Source of the DNA: a bacterium
GTDB lineage: Bacteria > Patescibacteriota > Patescibacteriia > UBA1558 > GWA2-36-10
DNA length: 11,194 nt
Direction of reading: 5' to 3'
NCBI GenBank assembly: GCA_030690875.1
Contig: JAUYFP010000025.1
Coordinates: 1 to 11,194, forward strand
The notes beneath the pieces are model-generated. The model had not been told where the DNA came from, made no database searches, and worked only from the letters and a program-made list of their open reading frames with translations. Shown piece by piece: positions 3,825 to 11,194 of this stretch. The first letter of the stretch is position 1. Each line of letters begins with the position of its first letter. A program made the position numbers and the translations under genes.

Positions 3825-5555
3825 ATGAGTAGTAAATTACCGATTTCTCAGGAAGATTTAAAGAAGATATTGTTTGAGGCTAAGGCAATAAGCACCAAGG
3901 ACTGGGAAGCAGCCGAAGATAATGCCCACCGCCGCCGTCGGAGCATTGAAGAAGTGCTGATCGAAAGAGGTTTTGTTAATATTCAGTATTTATATGAGTT
4001 GGTTGGCGATAAGTTGGATGTGCCTTATGTAAATTTGCGCAAAAGGAAACTTGATCCGGCTGTTTTAGGCGAATTAACTGAAGCGATTGTCAAAGATGCT
4101 AAGGCCATACCATTTTCTGTCAATGGACAAAATATAAAAGTCGCTTTTGTTTATCCAAAAGATAAAGCCAAAGTGGCCTTGGTGAAAAAGGCCAGCCAAA
4201 AAAAAGTTGAAGTATTTTTGACTAGTTATAAAAATTTTGTCTACGCTTCCCGCCTTTATCGGACCGATATTCAAGAAGAGCTCAATAAGATATTGAATGA
4301 AAAAATATTAAAAGTTGAGGGCCGGCCAACGGAAATAGAGATTCCGGTGATAAAAATAATTGACGCGATTTTGGAGGCGGCGATGTTTGAGCAGGCCTCG
4401 GATATTCATATTGAAGCTTTGCCCGACGCGGTAGTAGTCAGATTCAGAGTGGACGGTGATTTGCACGATCGGGTGGAGTTGCCATCTTCTATTCATGACG
4501 CCATAGTGGCTCGCATTAAGATATTATCAAATTTGAGAATTGACGAGCATAGAGTTCCCCAAGACGGACGCTTTTCTTTTAAAATTGAAGATGAGGAAGA
4601 GTCAGTCAGAGTTTCAGTTATTCCGGCTTTTTACGGAGAAAAAGTGGTCATGAGGTTGATGACTGATGATGCTCAAAATATGACTTTGGAAGATTTGGGA
4701 TTTTCGGAACACAACATCAAAATCATGAACCGGCAGATAAAAAAACCTTTTGGCATGATTTTAGTGGTCGGTCCTACGGGCTCGGGAAAAACCACAACTC
4801 TTTATTCAGTTCTAAATATTTTAAATACCGAAGAAGTGAATATTTGCACGATTGAGGATCCAATTGAATACGGAGTTAATCGCGTCAATCAAACACAGGT
4901 AAATCCTAAGGCTGGTTATGATTTTGCCACTGGACTAAGAGCTTTACTTCGCCAAGATCCAGACATTATCATGATCGGTGAGATCAGAGATAAAGATACG
5001 GCTCAAATTGCCGTTAGAGCCGGTTTGACCGGACACTTGGTATTATCTACCTTACACACCAATAACGCCGCCGGCGCCCCACCACGGCTCTTAGACATGG
5101 AAGTAGAGTCGTTTTTGGTGGCTTCCACCTTGAATGTGGTGATTGCTCAGCGATTGGTAAGAAAAATTTGCTTAAACTGCATTGAAAGCTACCATTTGAC
5201 TAAAGAAGAGATGCGTAGTTTATCCAAAGAGCTTGATTTGGAAGAAATGCTTAATCGTTTCAAGCAACTAGAAGTAGTGGAAAACAAAGTGAAATCATTT
5301 GGCGAATTGACTTTTTATCGCGGCAAAGGATGTTCGCGTTGCAATGGTTCTGGTTACAGCAAAAGAATGGGTGTTTTGGAAATTTTGGAAAATACTGAAA
5401 AAGTTCGTGATTTAATAGTTAGAAATTCCTCTTCTTCTGACTTGCAAAAAGTAGCTATGCAGGAAGGCATGGTGACTATTTTTGAAGATGGCATGCAGAA
5501 AGCTCTTTTAGGAGTAACTACTATTGAAGAAGTTTTGCGTATAAAAAAAGAATAA
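3825..5555 (+). CDS. pilB: Type IV pilus assembly ATPase PilB (GspE family)
   Basis: This 576-residue protein is a cytoplasmic hexameric motor that powers pilin extraction from the membrane and fibre growth on PilC. Residues about 1-155 form the MshEN-type N-terminal domain, including a charged RRRRSIEEVLIERGFV segment. An N2 domain follows (about 170-290: ASDIHIEALPDAVVVRFRVDG and the DEHRVPQDGRF loop). The motor domain has Walker A GPTGSGKTT (316-324), an Asp box (TIEDPIEY, 343-349), Walker B with catalytic Glu (IIMIGEIRD, E386) and a His box (TGHLVLSTLHTN, 402-413). A four-cysteine zinc site, C449/C452 and C503/C506, marks the assembly ATPase rather than the retraction ATPase PilT, which lacks it. 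Length is typical. It is the first gene of the operon, with pilC 6 bases downstream. All catalytic motifs are intact. Confidence 0.97.
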   Translation: MSSKLPISQEDLKKILFEAKAISTKDWEAAEDNAHRRRRSIEEVLIERGFVNIQYLYELVGDKLDVPYVNLRKRKLDPAVLGELTEAIVKDAKAIPFSVNGQNIKVAFVYPKDKAKVALVKKASQKKVEVFLTSYKNFVYASRLYRTDIQEELNKILNEKILKVEGRPTEIEIPVIKIIDAILEAAMFEQASDIHIEALPDAVVVRFRVDGDLHDRVELPSSIHDAIVARIKILSNLRIDEHRVPQDGRFSFKIEDEEESVRVSVIPAFYGEKVVMRLMTDDAQNMTLEDLGFSEHNIKIMNRQIKKPFGMILVVGPTGSGKTTTLYSVLNILNTEEVNICTIEDPIEYGVNRVNQTQVNPKAGYDFATGLRALLRQDPDIIMIGEIRDKDTAQIAVRAGLTGHLVLSTLHTNNAAGAPPRLLDMEVESFLVASTLNVVIAQRLVRKICLNCIESYHLTKEEMRSLSKELDLEEMLNRFKQLEVVENKVKSFGELTFYRGKGCSRCNGSGYSKRMGVLEILENTEKVRDLIVRNSSSSDLQKVAMQEGMVTIFEDGMQKALLGVTTIEEVLRIKKE

Positions 5556-5561
5556 AATAAA

Positions 5562-6821
5562 ATGGAATATTTAGATAACAAACACAAAAAAATTGACGAT
5601 TTTCCTTTGATACAATTGGATAAGTTGAGCGCTGATGGAGAATTCACTAAAGTTCCCAACAAAGCAAAAATGAGCTCCTTTAAGCTTTACACGGGCAAGC
5701 CGGAAAAAAAGAAGAGCGCTCCTAAGTCTAAGGTTAAAAAAGAAGTAAAACCAGTAGCGAAAAAAAGTTTTTCTTTTGGCATGGTTAGTTTGACAGAAAA
5801 AATGATGTTTATGGACAATCTTTCCACCATGCTTAAAGCTGGCTTGGCTTTGGCTCCGGCTTTAAAAACTTTAAAAAAAGAAATTAAAAATAAATATTTT
5901 AGAAAAGTAGTTGATTATTTGGATCAACATGTGGAAAATGGACAGCTTTTGTCAAAAGGCATGAGTAATTATCCAAAAGTTTTTCCAGAAATGATTATTG
6001 CCACCGTTGAAGTTGGAGAAAATACTGGTATGCTGGCCGATTCTTTTGCCCATTTGGCAGAAATAATGAAATCCCAAAAACAATTGCGCAGTAAGATAAT
6101 TAGCGCTTTGATGTATCCTAGTATTGTTTTGCTGGCTCTAATTGGTGTGAGTTTGTTTTTGGCTCTATCTATATTTCCTCAGCTGATTGATTTATTCGCG
6201 TCAGCCAATGTTAAACTGCCTTTTGTTTTGCGGGCAGTTCAAGCAATAAATTTTTTCTTAAGAAATTATTCTTTTTATGCTATCGGGGGAATTATAGTTT
6301 TTATTATAATCTTAAAAATAATATTTAACATTCCTAAGCCAAAATTATTTTTGCATACCTTTTGTTTAAATATTCCTTTTGCCGGTCGGCTGATAAAAGA
6401 AATATCGCTGACTAGTTTTACGGGAAATTTAAACGCCCTACTAGCCGCTGGTTTGGCCATAGTGCAATCAATGGACATCGTCGCCAAGACTTTGGGAAAT
6501 ATGCGCTATCGCAAAGAAATTCTGGCTATGTCTGATGAATTGGAAAAAGGCAACTCTCTGGAAAAAGCCATGGCTAAGCGACCGGACCTTTTTCCGTCTT
6601 TGACTATCCAACTTTGTCAGGTAGGAGAGACAACTGGTGAATTGGAAAATATTTTGCTTAAAATATCAAGATTTTATGAAGAGCGAGTCAACAATGTATT
6701 GACTAATCTGTCTACTATTATTGAACCGGTTTTGCTGGTAATTGTCGGCGTGGCCGTTGGTTTTATCGCTATTTCGGTTATTGGGCCAATGTATGAATTG
6801 ACTAGCAGTTTTGCTCCGTAA
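5562..6821 (+). CDS. pilC: Type IV pilus inner-membrane platform protein PilC (GspF family)
   Basis: This 419-residue protein is the polytopic platform that couples PilB rotation to pilin insertion. It has two T2SSF domains, about residues 76-205 and 282-405. Each has the conserved V-GE-TG core (EVGENTGMLADSF near 150-162, QVGETTGELENIL near 353-365). Transmembrane segments are near 182-206, 239-257 and 387-410, the usual three. The N-terminus has a lysine-rich, low-complexity cytoplasmic extension of about 75 residues (KPEKKKSAPKSKVKKEVK, 47-64) that probably contacts PilB or is a flexible linker. The ATG at 5562 lies 6 bases after pilB stops. A later ATG (codon 37) is possible, but the close spacing favours the first. 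No PilT gene lies between pilB and pilC, a position where I recall it in some related loci. Confidence 0.96.
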   Translation: MEYLDNKHKKIDDFPLIQLDKLSADGEFTKVPNKAKMSSFKLYTGKPEKKKSAPKSKVKKEVKPVAKKSFSFGMVSLTEKMMFMDNLSTMLKAGLALAPALKTLKKEIKNKYFRKVVDYLDQHVENGQLLSKGMSNYPKVFPEMIIATVEVGENTGMLADSFAHLAEIMKSQKQLRSKIISALMYPSIVLLALIGVSLFLALSIFPQLIDLFASANVKLPFVLRAVQAINFFLRNYSFYAIGGIIVFIIILKIIFNIPKPKLFLHTFCLNIPFAGRLIKEISLTSFTGNLNALLAAGLAIVQSMDIVAKTLGNMRYRKEILAMSDELEKGNSLEKAMAKRPDLFPSLTIQLCQVGETTGELENILLKISRFYEERVNNVLTNLSTIIEPVLLVIVGVAVGFIAISVIGPMYELTSSFAP

Positions 6822-6842
6822 ATATAAAAATAAAATTTGTTC

Positions 6843-7310
6843 ATGCAGAGAAAAGGAATATCAATTATTGAGATTATTATTACTATTTCCATTGTCAGTA
6901 TTTTGACGGGAATGGGCATGGCCGCTTATTTGAGCTGGCAAAAGCAGGCAAGGCTTGTAGATAATAGCGATGCTATAAAAAGCGCTTTGGTCAGAGCTCA
7001 ACAATTGGCTACCGCGGCCGCCAGCAGTACGGACTGGGGTCTTCATTTGGAACTTGACCGCTATGTTTTATTTTCCGGCAGTTTTTATAGTGTAGACGAT
7101 GCCAATAACTCATCTTGGAATCTCTCGGGGGTGGAAATAAATGATCCAGAGCTGAGTTTTACTGACGGAGCTGGCGGCCGGACCGCTGATGTTGTATTTC
7201 ATAAATTTACCGGACTCACTTCAAATACCGGAACAATAGATATCATCTCCAATGCGGATCCGACTATTGGTCGGGATATAGAGGTTTTTGCCTCTGGTAA
7301 AATAGACTAA
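6843..7310 (+). CDS. Prepilin-like minor pilin, FimT/GspH type
   Basis: The start is set at ATG 6843, which places a type III (prepilin) signal at once: MQRKG|ISIIEIIITISIVSIL, with the peptidase site after Gly5 and Glu at +5. An in-frame TTG six bases earlier is less likely. The 155-residue protein has the single N-terminal helix and then a beta-rich head. ALVRAQQLATAA (47-58), RYVLFSGSFYS (73-83), VVFHKFTGLTS (117-127) and RDIEVFASGKID (144-155) align with the pattern of FimT/GspH minor pseudopilins. Its place at the head of four pilin-like genes, as in the fimT-pilV-pilW-pilX or gspH-I-J-K order, supports this. Major pilin is the alternative, but the GspH-like head argues against it. It would be an inner component of a priming or tip complex. 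It follows pilC by 21 bases, without a Shine-Dalgarno. Confidence 0.85.
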   Translation: MQRKGISIIEIIITISIVSILTGMGMAAYLSWQKQARLVDNSDAIKSALVRAQQLATAAASSTDWGLHLELDRYVLFSGSFYSVDDANNSSWNLSGVEINDPELSFTDGAGGRTADVVFHKFTGLTSNTGTIDIISNADPTIGRDIEVFASGKID

Positions 7311-7324
7311 ATGATAATTTAAAA

Positions 7325-9214
7325 ATGCAGAGAAAAGGTTTTTCAATCATAGAACTTTTGGTGGCTATTTCTTTTGTTAGCGCAATTATACTTTTGATTT
7401 TGACCTTGGGTTCTTTTAATAGCCGAATTTTAAAATATAATGAAGACCGGACAACAGCGGTGTTTTATGCTTCCGAAGCAATTGAAGCGCTAAAAATGTT
7501 TTCTTGGGACGAACTCATTGTTAATAATAATCATAGTATTACTTTTAATACCGACCATTGGGAGCTCGGCGCTGGCGATCAGTTACTGGCTGGTAGATAC
7601 ACCAGAGCTATCAATGTCGCTAGCGTCAATAGAGAAAGTTCCAGCAATGGGCAAGTTTACGGAGCAATGGTGTCTTCTGGTGGCTATCTTGATCCGGACA
7701 CTAAAAAAATCACCGTAACCATGACCTGGAATTTATTAGGTAATAGCCAGACTGAGGAAATAGTTACTTATTTTCATCGTTGGCAAGCAGGTCGTTGGAA
7801 ACAGACTGATTGGGAAGGTGGCGCAGGGCAAATAAATTGGTCAAGTGTTAATAAATTTTTCAGCAGTGATTCGGGCATTGATGTGTCAATACCAGGGGTT
7901 GTTACTCTTCAGGCGGGTTTTTTGGATTGGAGCCAGGCTACGACTACGGCTACTTTTGATTCGCCTGGAAATTTTGATGATAATGATGTTTATGAGGTTG
8001 ACGGCATTGCTTATTTAGTTACCGAGGACAATCCCCAAGGCTCAGAATTTTATGTATTAGATGTTAGTGATATCTATAATCCTTGGCAAAAAGCTTCTTT
8101 AAATATAGGTTCGGCTGTTAGTTCGGTAGTAGTCAGTGGCGAATATGCTTATATTGCCACCGCTGATAATTATGCTGAATTTAAAGTAGTATCTATAGCT
8201 GACAAAAATAATCCTCAGGTGGTAGCTGCTCTTGATCTGCCCGGAAACGATGATGCTTTAGATGTAGCGGTTGATAATACCGAGGCTTATATTATTCAAG
8301 GCAGTAATTTGTATTCTTTCAGTATTCTTGATCCCACAAATCCCCAACCGCTTGACAATATCAGTGTTGATGAGTTGGCCATTGAAATTTCTTTGTCGGG
8401 CGATTATATTTATTTGGCCACGCAGAATCCTGATGGCGAGCTCCAAATAGTAGAAGTCACCAATCCAGCTAATCTTGGTGTGGCGGGGCAATATAGTTTG
8501 CCTGGCAATTTAAAGGGCACTGATATTTTTGTCAGGGGGAATAGAGCGTTCATTTCCACTCAAAATAATGGTGATGGTGACGAATTTTTTGTCTTAGAAG
8601 TCAGCGATCCAGCTAATATAGTTTTTTTGGGTAGTTATGGCGTTGACGAGAGTGTTTATTCCATAGCTATTATTGGTCCCTATGCCTTGGTAGGAACAAA
8701 TTTACTCAATGATGAGTTAATAGTCTTGGATGTTAGTTTTCCAGAGACTATTAATCTTGTTTCGGGATTTGATTTAACTGGTTATGTTTTAGGCATGTCA
8801 GCTAATTGTTCAGTAATTTATGCGGCCACTTCTGGAAATCAAGGGGAATTTTTTATTATATCCACAGAGGTTTTCGATTGTGATTATGCTGATGCCGGAA
8901 TTTTGGAGTCGTCAACCTTTGACACTGGCAGTTCGCAGGTATCCTATAATTGGATTGCTTGGACGGCTTCGGAGCCCTCTCAAACTGATATCAAATTCAA
9001 GATAGCCACTAGTGATAATATTGACGGTCCTTGGAATTTTGTCGGACCTGACGGCACAAGTGCAACTTATTACAACACAGCGGCGCAGGAATTTATAAAT
9101 TATACTTATCATCTAAATCAGAGGTATTTGCGTTATCAATTATTTTTGGATAGTCAATCAGCTTGGCAGATTCCTATATTGGAGGACATTACTATTAGTT
9201 ATTCAACTTGGTGA
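7325..9214 (+). CDS. PilV/GspI-like minor pilin fused to an LVIVD beta-propeller and a beta-rich C-terminal domain
   Basis: This 629-residue protein is far larger than ordinary minor pilins (about 120-200 residues). Residues 1-33 are a prepilin signal and helix: MQRKG|FSIIELLVAISFVSAI, with Glu at +5. The continuation FYASEAIEALKMFSWDEL (47-64) is like PilV/GspI-type proteins. A beta-rich head runs to about 150, then a linker with TDWEGGAGQINW (161-172) typical of surface proteins in these genomes. From about 221 to 516 there are about seven repeats of 32-45 residues, each with a VxGxYAYIAT-like strand, a VLDVSDP-like strand and a turn: an LVIVD-type beta-propeller. Two cysteines in the last blade (C495, C519) could form a disulfide. 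The last 100 residues (WTASEPSQTDIKFKIATSD...YLRYQLFLDS...LEDITISY) form another domain of sandwich type. The function is probably an adhesive or sensing head at the pilus tip, by analogy with PilY1. Its TGA overlaps the next ATG. Confidence 0.9.
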   Translation: MQRKGFSIIELLVAISFVSAIILLILTLGSFNSRILKYNEDRTTAVFYASEAIEALKMFSWDELIVNNNHSITFNTDHWELGAGDQLLAGRYTRAINVASVNRESSSNGQVYGAMVSSGGYLDPDTKKITVTMTWNLLGNSQTEEIVTYFHRWQAGRWKQTDWEGGAGQINWSSVNKFFSSDSGIDVSIPGVVTLQAGFLDWSQATTTATFDSPGNFDDNDVYEVDGIAYLVTEDNPQGSEFYVLDVSDIYNPWQKASLNIGSAVSSVVVSGEYAYIATADNYAEFKVVSIADKNNPQVVAALDLPGNDDALDVAVDNTEAYIIQGSNLYSFSILDPTNPQPLDNISVDELAIEISLSGDYIYLATQNPDGELQIVEVTNPANLGVAGQYSLPGNLKGTDIFVRGNRAFISTQNNGDGDEFFVLEVSDPANIVFLGSYGVDESVYSIAIIGPYALVGTNLLNDELIVLDVSFPETINLVSGFDLTGYVLGMSANCSVIYAATSGNQGEFFIISTEVFDCDYADAGILESSTFDTGSSQVSYNWIAWTASEPSQTDIKFKIATSDNIDGPWNFVGPDGTSATYYNTAAQEFINYTYHLNQRYLRYQLFLDSQSAWQIPILEDITISYSTW

Positions 9215-9756
9215 TGAAAAGATTAAAAAAACAAAAAATAAATTCAGCTGGCTTTACTTTTGTGGAAACAATAGTCTATATTTTTGTGATGACCATAATT
9301 TTAATGACAATATCCAGTTTATTATTGAGCGCTTTTAATGCCAGAAAACAATCAGTGGCCTCTTATTTAATATACAATGATGCTAGATTTATGGCCAATT
9401 TTTTAAACAACAGAATTCATAATGTTGGCTTAATAGAAGATGAGGCTTTGCCATCAGAATATTTATTTTATAATTTGCCGGATACTAGATTTGATCTGAT
9501 TTTAGATAATAATAATTTGCTTTATCGGGAAACTATTGACACTGGGAGCGGTTTTCCCGATCAGTCCAGCGCAGTAGTTACGACTTTAAATAACCAGTCA
9601 GTTAGAGTAGAAAGTTTTGCTTTGACGGCCGTGGCTGATGGTGAAGGTAATGCTAATCAAGGTATAAAAATAGACTTGCTTTTAGCTACGGGCCAGCCAA
9701 GCGATACTTTTGCATATAAAGAAAGAGCCTTTAGTTTTTACATTAGTTTGCGTTAA
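9214..9756 (+). CDS. PilW/GspJ-like minor pilin
   Basis: The ATG at 9214 shares its A with the TGA of the previous gene (ATG overlaps TGA by one base), suggesting translational coupling, so I prefer it to the in-frame TTG/GTG just upstream. The 180-residue product has a prepilin signal NSAG|FTFVETIVYIFVMTII with Glu at +5, a hydrophobic N-terminal helix, then SLLLSAFNARKQSVASYLIYNDARFMANFLNNRIHN. This long helix followed by a short beta-rich head (about 80-180) is the PilW/GspJ pattern. It would join the minor pilin complex that primes pilus assembly and carries the tip proteins. It has no cysteines, unlike its downstream neighbour. Exact subtype is inferred from order and the N-terminal region; other minor pilins are possible. 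Confidence 0.88.
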   Translation: MKRLKKQKINSAGFTFVETIVYIFVMTIILMTISSLLLSAFNARKQSVASYLIYNDARFMANFLNNRIHNVGLIEDEALPSEYLFYNLPDTRFDLILDNNNLLYRETIDTGSGFPDQSSAVVTTLNNQSVRVESFALTAVADGEGNANQGIKIDLLLATGQPSDTFAYKERAFSFYISLR

Positions 9757-9759
9757 TTT

Positions 9760-10713
9760 ATGTTTGAGGAAATTAAAAAATCACAGCAAGGCGCGGCCGC
9801 TCTGGTATCAGCAATGATAATTTCTTTTGCTTTGTTTTCTTTAGTTTTATCAATTTTGGCCGTATCTTTGAATATGAAAGAAAGCACTAGTTCTTTTGGC
9901 GAATCAATTCGCAATTTTTACGCGGCTGAGGCCGGAGTGGGGGAAACGCTTTATCAGCTCAAAAAAGAACACAATAATTTTAGCTTTGATAATTTTATGG
10001 TTGGCAATGTTGAAGTCCTTGGCCAGTTTGTAGATTTGCCAGGACTTTGCTTGCCAATACCAGAATGCCAATTTTTGCCGGGTTCTGGCTGGTGGGGTGA
10101 ATATTTTAACTATTCAGTTACTCATCCGGATATGGATGTTGATCCTTATCCCGGTCCAACACCAACACCGACTGAGCATGATTGGTATGATGATACTTAT
10201 AAAATTTATGAGCAAATAGACGCCAATTTAAATTTTCCAAGTAGTGGCTGGTTTCCTTATGACGGCACAGTATGGGAATATAAAGAGGGTTTTCCTCATG
10301 ATTATCATTTTGGCATGCACTGGCGAGCAAAAGTAACAGCACCTAGTAGTGGCGATTACGCCTATACTTTGGCTTCTGATGATGATAGTTGGGTTTTGCG
10401 TAGTGGAATCGTAGTAGTTAATAATAGTGGAACGCATGCCGCTTTTGTGAAAACAGGAACTATTTTTTTGAGCGTTGGGGATAATATTATAGAAGTTTAT
10501 TTTGCTGAAAGACACGATGTTGAATCGGGATTTAATTTTCGTTTCAATGATACTAATTTAATCATCACTCCTTGGCCGGAAGGTTGTGGGGATGATTTGG
10601 AGTGTAATTCCAATATTGAAGCCAATGCCAGTAGTACTCGGGCTTGGCGAAAAGCCCGCTATACCTGTAATCAGGATGTGGCCAATTGCGCTTGGAGCGA
10701 GCTGATACCTTAA
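9760..10713 (+). CDS. PilX/GspK-like minor pilin with a PA14/fibro-slime domain
   Basis: This 317-residue protein starts MFEEIKKSQQG|AAALVSAMIISFALFSLVLS. It has the Gly before a hydrophobic helix but lacks Glu at +5, as in GspK and some PilX proteins, which cap the fibre. IRNFYAAEAGVGETLYQLKKE (50-70) matches the PilX-type N-terminal pattern. Residues about 109-270 form an inserted PA14/fibro-slime-like domain: WWGEYFN, FGMHWRAKVTAPSSGDYAYTL, then DDDSW (207-211), HA (226-227), FAERH (248-252) and SGFNF. A proline-rich PYPGPTPTPT stretch (129-138) lies within its first part. Cysteines fall in three pairs: C97/C103, C276/C282 and C303/C310. The predicted role is a carbohydrate-binding or surface-binding tip component. 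It overlaps nothing and follows the PilW-like gene by three bases. The stop codon falls in the inverted repeat that ends the operon. Confidence 0.88.
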   Translation: MFEEIKKSQQGAAALVSAMIISFALFSLVLSILAVSLNMKESTSSFGESIRNFYAAEAGVGETLYQLKKEHNNFSFDNFMVGNVEVLGQFVDLPGLCLPIPECQFLPGSGWWGEYFNYSVTHPDMDVDPYPGPTPTPTEHDWYDDTYKIYEQIDANLNFPSSGWFPYDGTVWEYKEGFPHDYHFGMHWRAKVTAPSSGDYAYTLASDDDSWVLRSGIVVVNNSGTHAAFVKTGTIFLSVGDNIIEVYFAERHDVESGFNFRFNDTNLIITPWPEGCGDDLECNSNIEANASSTRAWRKARYTCNQDVANCAWSELIP

Positions 10714-10737
10714 CCTTCGAGGTTGACCTCGAAGGTT
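10712..10737. terminator. 12-bp inverted repeat at the end of the pilus operon
   Basis: AACCTTCGAGGT (10712-10723) and ACCTCGAAGGTT (10726-10737) are perfect inverted copies with only TG between them, giving an 11-bp stem with a TTGA loop. It begins in the stop codon of the PilX-like gene. A T-run is missing (GGTTGACA follows), so termination may be partial or another role is possible. Confidence 0.6.
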
Positions 10738-10768: not shown

Positions 10769-10798
10769 GTTATTAACTAATCAGCTAATATTTTGTTT

Positions 10799-11194
10799 AT
10801 GAAAATCATTAAAAAATATCTAAATTTGGGCTTTTTTGCCTTATTTTTATTGTTAATTTTATCTGCTTGCAGTATTGGCAATCAGGGGTCTCTTAATGAG
10901 AATGAAAATTCTTTGCCGCTTAATGAGAATGTAAGCAATGAGCAGAGCGATGAACAGCTAATTGGTGGTGACAAAGACGAATATGGTTGTTTGATAGCCG
11001 CCGGTTACAGCTGGTGCGAGCCAAAACAGAAATGTTTGCGAACTTGGGAAGAGGAATGTATCACCAGTGTCTCGCAAAATAATTTGCCTAAGCAATTTGC
11101 CAGCATAGCTGATTCTGTCAGCTGGGTAGTTTATCAAAACGAAGAATTTGATTATAGCGTTACTTATCCGGATATTGCCAATGTGGCTGGCGAT
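10799..11194 (+). CDS. Lipoprotein with a cysteine-rich motif (3' partial)
   Basis: The ATG at 10799 opens a frame that stays open to the window end (132 codons seen). It starts with a lipoprotein signal peptide: KIIKKY, a hydrophobic core, then lipobox LSAC with the lipidated Cys at residue 24. An Asn/Glu-rich linker follows (SLNENENSLPLNENVSNEQSDEQ region, about 30-53), typical of exported lipoproteins. Next comes a GGDKDEYGCLIAAGYSWCEPKQKCLRTWEEEC-type segment (about 56-88) with four cysteines; split into pieces, the recognisable parts are YGCLIAAGYSWCEPKQKC and LRTWEEEC. I recall this motif in many CPR and archaeal exported proteins, with no known function. The tail, FDYSVTYPDIANV, looks like the start of a further beta-rich domain cut off by the window end. 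It is separately promoted, so it may not belong to the pilus operon. Confidence 0.85.
   Translation, partial: MKIIKKYLNLGFFALFLLLILSACSIGNQGSLNENENSLPLNENVSNEQSDEQLIGGDKDEYGCLIAAGYSWCEPKQKCLRTWEEECITSVSQNNLPKQFASIADSVSWVVYQNEEFDYSVTYPDIANVAGD

Follow-up and report, generated by a model that had tools for sequence, protein, structure and literature searches.

The 11,194-nucleotide window analyzed here is the whole of contig C34 from a patescibacterial genome (718 kb in 119 contigs, 69% complete), and it codes for a type IV pilus (T4P) gene cluster in which two of four minor pilins carry additional domains. The closest named relatives of the window's proteins are from Candidatus Komeilibacteria and other Patescibacteria. 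The cluster, referred to as operon A, is organized on the plus strand with pilB and pilC followed by four prepilin-type genes, M1 to M4 (6843–10713), and the six genes probably form an operon transcribed as a single unit. Its features are as follows (aa, amino acids).

3825–5555, plus strand: pilB, the first gene of the cluster, coding for a PilB-type extension ATPase of 576 aa (T2SSE, 428.4 bits; MshEN, 35.6 bits)
5562–6821, plus strand: pilC, coding for a PilC-type inner-membrane platform protein of 419 aa (T2SSF, 171.2 bits)
6843–7310, plus strand: M1, minor pilin of 155 aa assigned to the FimT/GspH slot, with a prepilin signal that has Glu at +5 (Glu+5)
7325–9214, plus strand: M2, minor pilin of 629 aa assigned to the PilV/GspI slot, with a fused beta-propeller (LVIVD, Beta_propel)
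7940–8863, plus strand: the M2 propeller, residues 206–513, with 28 strands taken as seven four-stranded blades
9214–9756, plus strand: M3, minor pilin of 180 aa assigned to the PilW/GspJ slot, with a Glu+5 prepilin signal
9760–10713, plus strand: M4, minor pilin of 317 aa assigned to the PilX/GspK slot, with no Glu+5 and an inserted PA14 domain
10051–10575, plus strand: the PA14/fibro-slime-like insert of M4, residues ~98–272
10712–10737, plus strand: a perfect 11-bp inverted repeat with a 4-nt loop, read from the sequence, lying over the M4 stop codon and with no T run

A first-pass annotation of this DNA had described 6843–10713 as four consecutive minor pilin genes, with a propeller in the second and a PA14-like domain in the fourth, and both parts of that description are borne out, the former by the open reading frames and their recurrence in relatives and the latter by Pfam scores and structure models. 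M2 scores above the Pfam cut-offs for LVIVD, with 52.8 bits against 20.2, and for Beta_propel, with 28.4 bits against 22.4, and its single-protein model (mean predicted local distance difference test [pLDDT] score, 90.5) contains a helix at residues 6–56 and the propeller strands at 206–513. In this model, residues 152–205 and 514–627 resemble the halves of a single beta-sandwich that the propeller interrupts. M2 is a modular pilin, in that a pilin module is joined to a domain that is not T4P specific. Searching the PDB by sequence returns weak matches alone (best E value, 0.0042), and the PDB fold look-up is dominated by WD40 propellers, with a PilY1-like fold still compatible. Assignment of the propeller to the PilY1 family itself was ruled out, as PF05567 matches neither M2 nor M4 in Pfam searches at E values up to 1.

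M4 is likewise a modular pilin, and its PA14 domain is genuine, with a score over the Pfam cut-off (PF07691, 28.0 bits; cut-off 24.0) and a PA14 fold. The single-protein model (mean pLDDT, 84.8) has a helix at residues 2–69, and the PA14 match is inserted within the pilin fold rather than added at its C terminus. The nearest folds to the insert include sugar-bound PA14 domains, and a PDB sequence search with M4 matches the PA14 domain of RsgI (E value, 5.9e-8). PA14 lectins have an Asp-cis-Asp site for calcium and sugar; residues D208 and D209 of M4 are kept in all 68 PA14-bearing M4 sequences and D207 in 64 of the 68, the pair that corresponds to the lectin site being ambiguous.

The signal types and Glu+5 pattern are also as first described. 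M1, M2, and M3 have a class III signal, read from the sequence, with a Gly, a hydrophobic stretch, and Glu+5; M4 has the Gly and the hydrophobic stretch and lacks Glu+5, a residue that GspK-type pilins are without. As single proteins, M1 to M3 score 17.3, 13.3, and 16.3 bits with N_methyl, all below the cut-off of 21.2, and M4 has no match; M2 reaches the cut-off in the genome search, with neighboring residues in frame. Among 20 family members of M1, NCBIfam models match as ComGD (19), GspH (18), and ComGE (11); among 19 members each of M2 and M3, the matches are ComGE (18) and GspI (9) for M2 and ComGF (all 19), ComGD (17), and ComGE (13) for M3, with GspJ not among them. ComGD, ComGE, and ComGF are taken here to be the equivalents of the H, I, and J slots. 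The fit to the GspH-I-J-K order claimed from the sequence is thus upheld in part: the member counts back H-I-J, but the window's own M1 to M3 scores fall below the curated NCBIfam cut-offs and other pilin models match as well.

A survey of relatives, proposed as a check in the first-pass annotation, shows that the gene order recurs. Of the 20 pilC loci in the Komeilibacteria-related family, counting the window, 18 show a complete set of four pilin-type genes following pilC and the remaining two are interrupted by contig ends; in the complete loci M1 is 156–162 aa, M2 627–646 aa, M3 152–205 aa, and M4 136–327 aa. Complete in so many loci and near-constant in size, the four-gene set is not a chance arrangement. 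PilB is encoded immediately upstream of pilC in 16 of the 20 loci, a contig end precedes pilC in three, and at locus L055 a short frame lies between the two genes. A full-length M2 propeller pilin is present in 19 of the 21 family genomes (own genome counted), a contig end truncates it in G014, and none was found in G015 (89% complete, 160 contigs); the family's propeller pilins come from 13 genera. Mean pairwise identity is 69.4% for PA14 (91 pairs) and 53.9% for the propeller (171 pairs), with values of 47.9% for the M2 head, 44.6% for M1, and 48.1% for M3. Both modules appear too well conserved for a fast-evolving, host-specific receptor; the host-recognition device envisaged in the first-pass annotation would more likely bind a common ligand, possibly a glycan.

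Ten family loci (L068 to L074, L076, L077, and L081) contain a second pilB-pilC-four-pilin operon (operon B), a fragment of which is present in the window's own genome (L013, contig C11). Its slot-2 pilin varies from 305 to 1,076 aa and is the longest of the four at seven of the ten loci. In operon B of L074, slot 1 carries Fib_succ_major and slot 3 has Laminin_G, so that modules occur in several slots; its slot-2 pilin (L074:5337–8435) matches DUF2341 over the cut-off and, weakly and below the cut-off, the receptor-binding jelly-roll PF07953, most likely a generic lectin-fold likeness.

A scan of the class (239 genomes) with M2 gives matches at E values of ≤1e-10 in at least 106 genomes. Among the matches listed, a single propeller pilin outside the family is full length (G253) and two are partial, in G163 (contig end) and G146 (951-aa frame), and the others are limited to the pilin part, to the C-terminal sandwich, or to pieces of the propeller. 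The stretches examined comprise relatives within the order and 41 places outside it in which the match starts in the pilin part or, as at L090, is cut; the contig scan covered four loci, with L086 (Cellulomonas) left out. A Dojkabacteria locus (L085:4991–10809) has the same pilB-pilC layout, with pilins of 153, 647, 161, and 134 aa and an LVIVD propeller in slot 2. The pilC loci that belong neither to operon A nor to the ten operon B loci number 47 (among them L082, a truncated copy of operon B), and 24 of these have four complete pilin-type genes, with slot 2 the longest in 21; the exceptions are L078 and L080, where the fourth gene is long instead, and L098, where an extra pilin gene precedes the long one. 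Of the 23 incomplete loci, some stop at contig ends and others differ in layout (e.g., L066, L079, and L128). These loci were mostly picked by likeness to the M2 pilin part, and thus the presence of a slot-2 pilin was selected for but its size was not. A domain scan of ten slot-2 proteins shows varied contents: Laminin_G, CBM_4_9, and a weak LVIVD match at L064; PSII_BNR at L103; DUF2341 at L074, the one protein taken from operon B; LVIVD at L085; matches below the cut-off alone at L089 and L105; and nothing beyond the pilin motif at L095, L101, L104, and L108.

Fusion of adhesive domains to minor pilins, presented as a novelty in the first-pass annotation, is an established design: the account of "modular pilins" in PMC8179133 gives 264 architectures, with PA14 among the 15 most frequent and several named examples from candidate phyla. 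The tip model for monoderm Streptococcus sanguinis comprises PilA, PilB, and PilC, with two modular pilins and no PilY1 in the published model (PMC9934059). As with S. sanguinis PilB (vWA) and PilC (lectin), the putative binding domains at this locus are covalently joined to a small pilin module of a monoderm T4P, and two modular pilins are present in one minor-pilin set with no separate PilY1 found (PMC8179133, PMC9934059). However, the modules here are a propeller and PA14 rather than vWA and lectin, the set has four H-I-J-K-like genes, and the M4 PA14 domain sits inside the pilin fold, unlike the S. sanguinis modules, which are described there as C-terminal. A closer parallel in lineage is Nanosynbacter lyticus TM7x, a patescibacterium with minor pilins bearing a hepta-bladed propeller (PilX2) or a jelly roll (PilX1); deletion of PilX2 is reported to reduce bound hosts from ∼10.6% to 4.6% (PMC12206443). 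The same report describes PilX2 as an X-type pilin with RCC1 repeats and no predicted PilD signal, and M2 is set apart from that description by its LVIVD repeats, Glu+5 prepilin signal, and PilV/GspI slot. M2 would also resemble the PilC/PilY1 tip adhesin in presenting a propeller on minor pilins at the tip, but M2 is itself a pilin and matches LVIVD and Beta_propel instead of the PilY1 family. M4 is similar to GspK of type II secretion, likewise a fourth minor pilin lacking Glu+5. In GspK, too, a domain is inserted in the pilin sheet (PMC8179133), although the GspK insert is an alpha-domain and that of M4 is a PA14 beta domain. With fused-domain minor pilins and the propeller minor pilin PilX2 already published (PMC8179133, PMC12206443), the locus is a variant and not a new kind; its new elements are the pairing of modules, the carrier slot, and a dedicated, conserved gene cluster, the underlying principle being known. 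In the literature searched, nothing pairs "LVIVD" with "pilin" or "Komeilibacteria" with "pili," which does not establish the novelty of the exact architecture.

The reading favored here, with a probability of roughly 0.6, is that the six-gene cluster codes for the initiation and tip complex of a dedicated type IV pilus, with M2 and M4 forming a two-part adhesin. It builds on the genes, their order and domains, the family-wide conservation, and the single-protein models of M2 and M4, and it takes processing, assembly, tip location, adhesion, and ligand by analogy from S. sanguinis (PMC9934059), TM7x (PMC12206443), and the H-I-J-K work as quoted in those sources. The slot profiles, the sugar-bound PA14 structures close to the M4 insert, the invariant D208 and D209, the lack of a PilY1 hit, and the presence of PilD and PilT-like genes also speak for it. 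PilD, encoded elsewhere, would trim the prepilins, and the trimmed M1 to M4 would assemble on PilC as an H-I-J-K-like cap; PilB would push, with major pilin from other loci filling in beneath the cap. M2 would hold out its seven-bladed propeller beside the tip, and M4, at the apex, would present the PA14 domain in a loop of its pilin sheet, the two together taking the role of PilY1 in classical pili. What they bind would probably be a surface molecule of wide occurrence on host or neighboring cells, for which a glycan is the simplest candidate.

Several findings weigh against this reading. PA14 is optional, being carried by 14 of 18 family M4 proteins, and the other four are 136–153 aa without it; the two-part tip is therefore not obligatory, and PA14 and the propeller as an obligatory pair are ruled out. 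The best tree of M2, covering 18 of 19 rows (L048, whose M4 is cut by a contig end, excluded), needs three PA14 changes and its well-supported branches require one, with gain and loss not separable. M4, both as the window protein and in family members, matches no pilin family model in Pfam or NCBIfam, and its assignment to the fourth slot is thus based on position and the absent Glu+5. Neither a major pilin gene nor PilM is present at the family's operon A loci, so that operon A either relies on other loci or forms a short pseudopilus. Finally, the absence of PilY1 is weak evidence from one Pfam model (PF05567). No match was found in the own genome (E values up to 1; the Haloferax control alone matched, below the cut-off) or in 36 genomes of the order, so that the separate PilY1-type gene named in the first-pass annotation as a refutation did not turn up, but 14 control genomes gave none either and the own genome is 69% complete, and the absence is therefore not proven. 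A standalone propeller protein on contig C95 (L087) was considered as the missing PilY1 and rejected, its 692-aa relative at L088 being a Beta_propel (PF09826) protein. Such separate proteins of ∼700 aa with a hydrophobic N terminus are present in several family genomes (L087; L088:3223–5301).

The first-pass annotation had also proposed searching the rest of the genome for pilMNO, pilT, and pilD. A PilD gene is on contig C55, a PilN match below the cut-off is on C85, and one PilT-like gene is cut by a contig end and below the cut-off, but PilM was not found in the own genome. Across the 21 family genomes, PilT is over the cut-off in 18 and PilM in 19; a PilM match adjoins operon B downstream, and none does so at any operon A locus. 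Strong PilB-type matches number one to five per family genome, a few of them fragments, with three in the own genome. For family genomes of 0.6–1.2 Mb, one to five PilB-type ATPases are a large investment in type IV filaments.

What the modules bind is open to other interpretations. They could attach the pilus to particles or biofilm by binding environmental polysaccharide or matrix, such as polymers of the cellulose or slime type, instead of a host cell, which seems rather unlikely but has several points in its favor. The fibro-slime model TIGR02148 matches 14 of 18 family M4 proteins at E values up to 0.05 (best, 3.9e-7), and fibro-slime proteins are linked to cellulose attachment in Fibrobacter in the account of PMC4668043; the family-wide conservation of the modules fits a common polymer, and the Fib_succ_major and Laminin_G modules in operon B of L074 are of a similar bent. 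Nonetheless, the M4 of the window reaches 21.8 bits where the curated cut-off is 45, and a host could just as well bear the glycan, since all cultivated Patescibacteria are reported to be episymbionts (PMC12206443).

Two further explanations dispense with adhesion as the main role. The propeller may be chiefly structural, priming assembly or sensing contact with a surface, roles that PilY1 has in part, and binding little ligand itself; this is improbable, even with the propeller pilin full length in nearly all family genomes and PA14, the likelier ligand binder, missing from some M4 proteins. Slot 2 of other families bears other modules (L064, L103) or nothing known, and this propeller is therefore not needed for assembly in general. 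That the cluster is the tip of a competence (Com-type) pilus or pseudopilus, the modules of which capture or guide DNA, is decidedly improbable. The most widespread NCBIfam matches, ComGE in M2 and ComGF in M3, together with ComGD in M1, would suit such a role, as would operon A having no PilM, but the window's proteins score below the Com model cut-offs and the modules are a propeller and a PA14 domain with sugar-bound structures among its nearest folds.

A broader proposal is that slot 2 acts in many Patescibacteria as a general plug-in carrier, able to take many kinds of binding module, that replaced PilY1. The family's spare copy with its own PilB and PilC, lacking major pilin and PilM, would then be dedicated to a fixed propeller and an optional PA14; the result would be a pilus specialized for attachment, in genomes of ∼1 Mb that have as many as four further PilB-type systems. 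This proposal is tentative, at somewhat less than even odds. How ultrasmall episymbiotic bacteria recognize and hold other cells is described as largely unknown (PMC12206443), and the locus offers two compact, confidently predicted domains suited to expression and ligand testing. It also raises the question of whether fused modules replaced PilY1 outside classical pili, and placement of the largest module in the second minor pilin, if general beyond the operons examined, would give an easy way to pick out candidate adhesins in uncultured genomes.

Within the window, M1 has an in-frame TTG at 6837 upstream of its ATG at 6843, and M3 similarly has a TTG at 9208 upstream of the ATG at 9214, which shares one base with the M2 stop codon. 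An Rfam search of the window gives no match reaching the gathering score; the hairpin at 10712–10737, as judged from its sequence, is a possible transcript end. Downstream of M4 is a lipoprotein-like gene (10793–11194) that is interrupted by the contig end, and at least six family loci have partial, sometimes weak, relatives of it downstream of operon A.

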